A program made the position numbers and the translations under genes. Of a DNA stretch of 37,424 nucleotides, positions 19,997 through 21,986 are shown in pieces. The stretch comes from Hydrogenobaculum sp. (lineage in GTDB: Bacteria; Aquificota; Aquificia; Aquificales; Aquificaceae), in the NCBI GenBank assembly GCA_002878215.1, contig PNJC01000133.1, positions 1 to 37,424 on the forward strand. Direction: 5' to 3'. A model generated the notes under the pieces. It was not told the DNA's origin, did not search any database, and worked only from the letters and a program-made list of their open reading frames with translations. Positions within the stretch are counted from its first letter, which is position 1. Every line of letters begins with the position of its first letter.

Positions 19997-20022
19997 AAAC
20001 ACCGCCCACACAGTGGGCGGAT
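19997..20022 (-). terminator. Strong terminator hairpin ending the ribosomal mega-cluster
   Basis: CCGCCCAC (20002-20009) and GTGGGCGG (20013-20020) form a perfect 8-bp stem with a 3-nt loop, 17 nt beyond the khpA stop on the minus strand. The following sequence (TGTTTGTTG) is moderately U-rich. It is the most GC-rich and stable hairpin I noticed in the window. It also insulates the helicase gene. Confidence 0.75.
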
Positions 20023-20037
20023 AGCCTTATAAAATTA

Positions 20038-20277
20038 TTACTCTATAATCTCCAACATATATTTTTTGCCGCTTTTTCTACCCATAGCCGATACAAGCGT
20101 TCTCAGGGCTTTGGCTATGCGCCCTTGTTTACCTATAACCTTACCTATATCTTGAGGGCCAACCCTTAGCTCTATAACAACGGTTTGCTCTCCCTCGACT
20201 TCAACCACGTTTACCTTTGATACGTCCTCTACTAGGCTTTTTGCGAAGATTTCCACAAGATCTTTAGCTTGGCTCAT
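20038..20277 (-). CDS. khpA: KH-domain RNA-binding protein KhpA
   Basis: The small 79-residue protein consists of a single KH domain with the GKVIGKQGRIAKALRTL loop (GxxG = GKQG) that contacts single-stranded RNA. In other bacteria KhpA partners with KhpB/Jag and affects cell envelope and sRNA biology. It follows rpsP by 13 nt, the usual ffh-rpsP-khpA order. The rimM and trmD genes that often follow are absent; a terminator comes next. Confidence 0.92.
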   Translation of the reverse strand: MSQAKDLVEIFAKSLVEDVSKVNVVEVEGEQTVVIELRVGPQDIGKVIGKQGRIAKALRTLVSAMGRKSGKKYMLEIIE

Positions 20278-20290
20278 ACGTTACCTCCTA

Positions 20291-20542
20291 TTAAGAATTT
20301 GCATTAACGTTAGCGTTAGCTTGTTTTAAAATAGCTTTCACTCTATCAGAAAGCTGAGCACCCTTTTTAATCCATTGGTCTATGGCTTCTTTGTTTAAAT
20401 TTATTACGTTGCCAGATTTTGGATCGTAGGTGCCTAAAATATCCAAATAATGCCCCTCTCTCGGAGACTTTGAATCCATCGCCACTATCCTATATATAGG
20501 ATGATGTGTTCTACCAAATCTAGCTAGTCTTATCTTTACCAA
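20291..20542 (-). CDS. rpsP: 30S ribosomal protein S16
   Basis: The product has 83 residues with the S16 start MVKIRLARFGRTHHPIYRIV, then DSKSPREGHYLDILGTYDP. The start codon is TTG with only a weak AAGGG upstream, so initiation is likely inefficient or regulated. The 101-nt gap to ffh holds a structured leader. S16 is a primary-to-secondary binder needed for 30S assembly. Confidence 0.95.
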   Translation of the reverse strand: MVKIRLARFGRTHHPIYRIVAMDSKSPREGHYLDILGTYDPKSGNVINLNKEAIDQWIKKGAQLSDRVKAILKQANANVNANS

Positions 20543-20558
20543 AGCTCAGTACCCTTTT

Positions 20559-20617
20559 ATTTGGCTTTTAAAAACCAAATAGAGTGGATATTTGTAATCG
20601 CCTACCACTCTGGCGAT
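20559..20617 (-). promoter_or_regulatory. Candidate structured 5' leader of rpsP (H-type pseudoknot plus hairpin)
   Basis: Read on the minus strand, ATCGCC (20617-20612) pairs with GGCGAT (20602-20597). The loop bases AGAGTGG (20611-20605) can pair with CCACTCT (20587-20581) further downstream, through a 9-nt connector. This gives an H-type pseudoknot of 6 and 7 bp. It abuts a second hairpin, ATTTGG (20580-20575) with CCAAAT (20564-20559), which ends 16 nt before the TTG start of rpsP. All three stems are perfect. Confidence 0.6.
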
Positions 20618-20643
20618 ATTTATATTTGAAATATTCTTCATAG

Positions 20644-21951
20644 TTAAAACGGAAGCCCTAAACCACCAAACGGTGATTTCTGATTCTTCAGCTTTCTAAT
20701 CATCTTTTTCATATCCTGATATTGTTTTAAAAGCTTGTTAACGTCGGAAACGGTAGTACCGCTACCTTTAGCTATCCTTTGTTTACGGCTTAAGTTTATA
20801 ATGTTTGGATTTGCTCTTTCCTCAGGAGTCATAGAATCTATCATTGCTATAATACGCTTGAATATCTTTTGATCAACTTTTATATTTTTCAGCTGAGAAC
20901 CAACCCCTGGCAACATTGAAAGTACTTTGTCAAGAGGACCCATATTCATCATAAAACTTATATTTTTCTTTAAATCGTTTAAATCAAACTCTCCTCTCAT
21001 CATTTTATAGGTTATAGCTTGAGCTTCGTCTTCACTAATGACTTGTTCAGCTTTTTCTATAAGACTCTGCAAATCGCCAAGACCTAATATCCTTTGGGCA
21101 ATCCTATCTGGATAAAATTGGTCTATATCCTCCAGCTTTTCACCAACGCCTATATACTTTATTGGAATACCTATGGCATCCTTTATAGAAAGCGCTACGC
21201 CACCTCTGGTATCACCATCCATTTTGGTAAGAATAGCTCCCGTAAGCCCTACGACTTCATTAAAAGTTTTAGCTACAGAGAGGGCTTCTTGTCCTTGCAT
21301 GCTATCAGCTACGTATATAACCTCAGAAGGTTTTACAGCTTCTTTTATGGCTCTTAACTCTTCCATCAGTTCGTTATCTATATGAAGTCTACCAGCTGTA
21401 TCTAAAAATAAATAATCGTATTTTTTGCTTTTAAAAGCCTCAAAAGCCTCTTTTGCTATATCAACAGGGTTCTTGTCTGGACTAAATTCTAGGTATTCTA
21501 CGCCTGCTAACTCAGATACACGCTTTAATTGAAGCATGGCTGCTGGTCTTCTTACGTCTGTGGATACCGTCATAACACTTCTACCGTTTTTCTTCATGAG
21601 GTTTGCTAACTTACCTATTGTCGTGGTTTTACCAGTCCCCTGAAGACCAACAAACATTACGACTCCCTCTTCTAAAGGAGAAGCATTTCCCCCTAGCGTT
21701 TTGACAAGCTCATCATAAACGCTCATTATAATCATATCAGTAGGGGACAAGTGAGTTTTTATCTCTTCAGAAAAGATACGTTCTCTTAACCTTTTAATAA
21801 AATCCTTCGCTACATCATAATCTACATCAGCTTCCAATAAAGCAGCTCTAATATCTCTAAGAGTATCGTTAACTAACTTTTCATTTAACTTTTTAGCACC
21901 TTTTAGCTTCTCTAAACTTCCACTAATCTTTTCCGTTAAAAGTTCCAACAT
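20644..21951 (-). CDS. ffh: Signal recognition particle GTPase Ffh (SRP54)
   Basis: Ffh with 4.5S RNA delivers nascent membrane proteins to FtsY and SecYEG. The 435 residues contain the N domain, then the G domain with GLQGTGKTTTIGKLA, DTAGRLH, TKMDGDTRGG and the GVGEKLEDI closing loop. The Met-rich M domain follows (MMRGEFDLNDLKKNISFMMNMG, SRKQRIAKGSGTTVSDVNKLL). It has its own sigma70-like promoter whose -10 ends 7 nt before the ATG, and no Shine-Dalgarno. It lies downstream of yggT in the ribosomal cluster. Confidence 0.97.
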   Translation of the reverse strand: MLELLTEKISGSLEKLKGAKKLNEKLVNDTLRDIRAALLEADVDYDVAKDFIKRLRERIFSEEIKTHLSPTDMIIMSVYDELVKTLGGNASPLEEGVVMFVGLQGTGKTTTIGKLANLMKKNGRSVMTVSTDVRRPAAMLQLKRVSELAGVEYLEFSPDKNPVDIAKEAFEAFKSKKYDYLFLDTAGRLHIDNELMEELRAIKEAVKPSEVIYVADSMQGQEALSVAKTFNEVVGLTGAILTKMDGDTRGGVALSIKDAIGIPIKYIGVGEKLEDIDQFYPDRIAQRILGLGDLQSLIEKAEQVISEDEAQAITYKMMRGEFDLNDLKKNISFMMNMGPLDKVLSMLPGVGSQLKNIKVDQKIFKRIIAMIDSMTPEERANPNIINLSRKQRIAKGSGTTVSDVNKLLKQYQDMKKMIRKLKNQKSPFGGLGLPF

Positions 21952-21958
21952 AGTCTAT

Positions 21959-21986
21959 ATTATACCATAATGTAACACTATCTCAA
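21959..21986 (-). promoter_or_regulatory. Promoter of ffh-rpsP-khpA, leaderless geometry
   Basis: On the minus strand, TTGAGA (21981-21986), a 16-nt spacer and a perfect TATAAT (21959-21964) end 7 nt before the ffh ATG at 21951. The -35 overlaps the yggT stop codon. The predicted start of transcription is at or next to the start codon. Confidence 0.65.

Follow-up and report, generated by a model that had tools for sequence, protein, structure and literature searches.

What is a conserved RNA fold doing in the gap between ffh and rpsP of Hydrogenobaculum, a hot-spring bacterium of the phylum Aquificota? These are two genes that appear to share one transcript. The window (the whole 37,424-nt stretch of DNA that was analysed) carries on its minus strand a ribosomal-protein cluster that includes rpoA, rplQ and a YGGT-family gene, followed by ffh, rpsP and khpA, with a gap of 101 nt between ffh and rpsP (Table 1). 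The nearest named relatives of its Ffh protein come from Hydrogenobaculum sp. KMB_Bin01 (97%) and Aquificaceae bacterium UBA2488 (88%). The reading that we favour, at a probability of roughly 45%, is a cis-acting leader within the ffh-rpsP-khpA transcript, made up of a pseudoknot and a further stem (P3), that would set rpsP apart from ffh through feedback by its own product, S16.

Table 1 Features of the ffh-rpsP-khpA region, with positions in the window
Feature	Positions	Strand	Remarks
Promoter, TTGAGA-16-TATAAT, extended TG	21959..21986	-	ends 7 nt before the ffh ATG
ffh (signal recognition particle protein)	20644..21951	-	cistron upstream of rpsP
31-codon open frame across the gap	20546..20641	-	probably no gene; open in four species
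P1 hairpin, AUCGCC (20617-20612) / GGCGAU (20602-20597)	20597..20617	-	6 bp, all five species
P2, AGAGUGG (20611-20605) / CCACUCU (20587-20581)	20581..20611	-	conserved core GAGUG:CACUC
Loop 3, 9 nt, UAYAAAUAU	20588..20596	-	invariant except one Y, five species
P3 hairpin, AUUUGG...CCAAAU	20559..20580	-	directly abuts P2
rpsP Shine-Dalgarno, AAGGG, weak	20552..20556	-	-4.7 kcal/mol, simple duplex score
rpsP (ribosomal protein S16), TTG start	20291..20542	-	Pfam PF00886, E 7e-22
khpA (KH-domain RNA-binding protein)	20038..20277	-	Pfam PF13083; cistron downstream of rpsP
Intrinsic terminator after khpA	20002..20020	-	helix kept, sequence changed in relatives

All three stems that the initial annotation had placed in the gap were recovered on the minus strand, including P3, a perfect 6-bp stem that ends, as it had said, 16 nt before the rpsP TTG. 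Its description of a 6-bp hairpin with a complementary 7-nt loop needs one correction: the hairpin (P1) and the seven pairing nucleotides stand, but the loop that contains them is 9 nt long. These seven nucleotides pair downstream to form P2, which has 7 bp in the window and 5 bp (GAGUG:CACUC only) in the relative G001; because the first position of P2 is A, G or U among the species, we prefer to count it as a linker of one nucleotide. The linkers measure 0-1 nt (L1), 2-3 nt (L2) and 9 nt (L3), and together with helices of 5-6 bp they give the classic geometry of an H-type pseudoknot. Helix lengths, downstream pairing of the loop and sterically permitted linkers all agree with the predicted formation of such a fold, in which loop 3 would be expected to cross the minor groove of P1. 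P3, which a folding program lengthens to 9-10 bp, could stack on P2, as no gap separates the two. That P1 and P2 are instead the alternative helices of a two-state switch, with no pseudoknot, is very improbable: nested folding does favour P1 in G000 and P2 in G004, but the program cannot score pseudoknots, and the short L1 and the 9-nt L3 fit one sterically.

When we scanned both strands of the 37.4-kb window for Watson-Crick H-type pseudoknots whose stems each have 6 bp or more and a minimum of three G-C pairs, we found no second example. Among dinucleotide shuffles of the gap, 2 of 4,000 contained a pseudoknot of equal quality, and none of the 4,000 contained one with a further perfect hairpin behind it. 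Scored without the pseudoknot, the gap folds better than its shuffles (z = -2.5), whereas a longer stretch that includes the coding flanks does not (z = -0.6). The stems are real and far beyond chance. Complementarity that arose by accident and does nothing would fit with the small variation among only four distinct sequences, but it is hardly credible beside these shuffle frequencies and the strong constraint on a non-coding gap in five species. We also rejected P3 as a dispersed repeat, given that genome matches to gap positions 63-90 were short, of low complexity and nearly all inside open frames.

To follow the element through relatives, we searched 61 related genomes for S16, found it in 58, and read the rpsP leaders. 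Absence of the stems from close homologues, which the initial annotation had named as grounds for abandoning the fold, was not what we found: the element is present in all five Hydrogenobaculum genomes examined (G000-G004), with one compensatory change in P3. Each of these five genomes contains a single copy of a 26-nt core, sought with 3 or fewer mismatches, always before rpsP; none of 131 other genomes of the phylum contains it. The suggested assignment to Aquificales was sound and can be narrowed to Hydrogenobaculum. In rpsP leaders of other Aquificales, the search for a homologous fold returned two loose matches (L021 and L027), both from other genera and unrelated in sequence. A search for viral contigs with relatives of rpsP found none.

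Within the genus, the element is far more constant than its surroundings. From P1 to P3, G000 and G004 are identical at 59 of 59 nt, with flanks that differ on both sides and ffh third codon positions that differ by 40%. Even in G001, the most diverged species, where ffh third positions are 52% different, the 26-nt block is identical but for one Y; across 690 nt of ffh, by contrast, the three share no identical run longer than 14 nt. In every one of the five species, 13-16 nt separate P3 from the rpsP start. The distance from the element to the ffh stop varies from 2 to 29 nt, and G001 is without the first part of the gap, its P1 starting 2 nt past the ffh stop. This constant spacing to rpsP suggests that the element belongs functionally to rpsP and not to the end of ffh.

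Sequence changes within the stems are few. In G001, P3 reads AUUUAGG...CCUAAAU in place of AUUUGG...CCAAAU, a two-sided compensatory change from G-C to A-U, and P1 has its single change, from C-G to U-G, in the same species. With P1 and P2 nearly invariant and only four distinct rows in the alignment, covariation neither proves nor refutes these two helices: their changes are one-sided, and the covariation score was reached by 124 of 500 shuffles. Shifting the pairing partners by 1-3 columns lowered pairing from 97% to 30-50%.

The initial annotation had pointed to a -10-like TATAAA (20619-20624) and proposed that the fold would form only in read-through RNA. The box is present but not conserved among relatives, and we rejected a promoter inside the gap. 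The proposal of read-through can be made more exact, as a strong, conserved promoter directly before ffh would place the fold in the ffh-rpsP-khpA mRNA. This promoter matches 11 of 12 consensus positions in the window, and none of the five Hydrogenobaculum species departs from ATGGTATAAT, which lies 6-8 nt ahead of the ffh ATG. Together, the conserved promoter and the terminator after khpA predict a single transcript unit of three genes, in which the fold could reset rpsP separately from ffh.

In the region 21952-21986, 6-8 nt separate the end of the extended -10 promoter TGGTATAAT, likewise invariant in the five species, from the ffh ATG, and no clear Shine-Dalgarno sequence stands ahead of that ATG. 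As the promoter abuts the start codon, the ffh message would begin at or next to it, and is probably leaderless or nearly so.

A shared transcript would also suit the main rival to S16 feedback, namely a ligand-free element for processing or ribosome standby. Located between ffh and rpsP in one predicted transcript, the fold might block a 3' exonuclease, guide an endonuclease or act as a constitutive standby or S1 site, with the effect that synthesis of S16 proceeds at another rate than that of Ffh, which is needed in far smaller amounts. However, plain stability helices drift, and the operon supplies its own yardstick for this: the terminator after khpA (L099-L102) retains its helix across the genus while its sequence changes, whereas the fold is nearly invariant in loops and stems alike. 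Other relatives with adjacent ffh and rpsP lack the element and manage without it. We consider a ligand-free role unlikely on this evidence. Whereas the terminator sequence changes, that of the pseudoknot is retained even in the loops, which points to specific recognition rather than to a generic helix.

The region around the rpsP start is in part what translational control would call for. The initial annotation had argued from a weak start codon and a weak Shine-Dalgarno sequence; the latter holds, but the TTG is no special sign because rpsP genes of this order often start this way, TTG being the usual rpsP start in a second family of Aquificales. In the duplex scoring of Table 1, khpA reaches -11.5 kcal/mol and nearly all other ribosomal-protein genes of the cluster about -6 to -13; other Aquificales rpsP genes have Shine-Dalgarno sequences of the GGAGG type. 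No intrinsic terminator or attenuator was called on the coding strand of the gap, where P3 is followed by AAAAGGG with no U run.

We also considered a switch in which UAUCC (20586-20590) masks the Shine-Dalgarno sequence by pairing with GGGUA (20550-20554) around P3 and is excluded by P2. In the models this switch appears in G000 and G002 and partly in G003; we rejected it as a conserved mechanism because it is absent in G004 and G001. In the G000 model, pseudoknot formation raises the unpaired fraction of the Shine-Dalgarno sequence from 0.44 to 0.85. This release, seen in G002 too, would be in keeping with a small-molecule riboswitch or an RNA thermometer governing rpsP, as would the invariant loops, which suggest specific recognition; compact H-type pseudoknots are, moreover, a common riboswitch architecture. 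We nonetheless regard such a sensor as improbable, since two of the five species are without the masking, the element occurs in one copy per genome and never ahead of another gene, and no Rfam riboswitch matches it.

Coupling through translation of the gap itself is less probable still. The 31-codon frame lies 2-3 nt from both the ffh stop and the rpsP start (in the window, 2 nt and 3 nt respectively), as a coupling leader peptide might, and it is open in G000, G002 and G003, and also in G004 with a different first third. However, the nine N-terminal residues bear no relation in G004, changes within the conserved part of the frame are not biased towards synonymous ones, and the frame is absent from G001, where the RNA fold persists.

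Under S16 feedback, the leader RNA would fold into an H-type pseudoknot of P1 and P2, with P3 stacked at its end, and this fold would border the rpsP ribosome-binding site on its 5' side. Free S16 would then bind the pseudoknot, and bound S16 would lower initiation at the weak Shine-Dalgarno sequence and TTG. Conservation, the fixed distance to rpsP and the predicted operon frame come from the sequences; action on translation, repression by binding and S16 as the ligand are what we infer. As a conserved RNA structure just upstream of a ribosomal-protein gene in all five members of the genus, the element resembles an autogenous ribosomal-protein leader (r-leader). S16 is the most probable ligand because it is the sole ribosomal protein of the ffh-rpsP-khpA unit; KhpA, which binds RNA and is encoded in the operon, could be an alternative. 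A comparison with 16S rRNA gave no shared word longer than 8 nt, and the best words fell outside the 5' domain that S16 binds. P2 resembles 16S helix 6, and we discarded it as a mimic of that helix, as helix 6 drifts in G003 and P2 does not. Mimicry of the rRNA binding site, which is frequent but not obligatory among r-leaders, thus did not exceed chance here.

Several known leaders resemble this arrangement in part. In T-even phages, the gene 32 product binds its own leader, where a short H-type pseudoknot lies ahead of the start codon and has a first linker of one nucleotide. That leader shares pseudoknot type, first linker and position with the fold described here and differs in its ligand, a phage single-strand binding protein that spreads cooperatively, and in its unrelated sequence. 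In the rpsO (S15) leaders of E. coli and mycobacteria, too, a single ribosomal-protein gene has a small pseudoknot located at its ribosome-binding site or immediately ahead of it, the mycobacterial one lying upstream of the initiation site as here; protein and sequence differ, and their U-G/C-G motif is not constant in Hydrogenobaculum, where P1 has U-G in G001 only (PMC10931766). The E. coli alpha-operon leader bound by S4 is likewise a pseudoknot in a ribosomal-protein mRNA, but it is more complex, includes the rpsM ribosome-binding site and belongs to another protein and operon (PMC10931766).

For S16 itself, a candidate r-leader upstream of rpsP-rimM in Flavobacteria was predicted by comparative genomics in 2020 (PMC7247131). 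As here, it is a structured RNA directly before rpsP, which its authors take to be bound by S16; unlike the present element, as far as a comparison by description goes, it comes from another phylum, precedes rpsP-rimM and is presented in the main text of that report without a pseudoknot (PMC7247131). A 2024 review has nothing to report on how the rpsP operon is regulated (PMC10931766), and the main text of a survey of Aquificales RNAs does not mention rpsP, S16 or ffh (PMC4227106). Rfam 15 returned no match at gathering score across the window and nothing meaningful at E values up to 10 around the gap.

Judged by these comparisons, the element looks like a new, genus-restricted r-leader. Control of rpsP is almost unstudied, and the fold is probably a switch for the amount of S16. 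More tentatively, and somewhat short of an even chance, it may be a genus-specific, pseudoknotted S16 autoregulator that evolved along with loss of a strong rpsP Shine-Dalgarno sequence; S16 would then have a second leader, unrelated to the one in Flavobacteria as far as description allows a comparison, and the first to contain a pseudoknot. The element would also be one more case of an r-leader that arose afresh within a single lineage, and a transcript that locks rpsP to low-abundance Ffh is a candidate setting for such an origin. At 59 nt and in single copy, the RNA is short enough for a direct test of S16 feedback. Elsewhere among the related genomes, G059 (L049) has two rpsP matches with identical scores about 1 kb apart on one contig, which represent either a tandem duplication or an assembly artefact.
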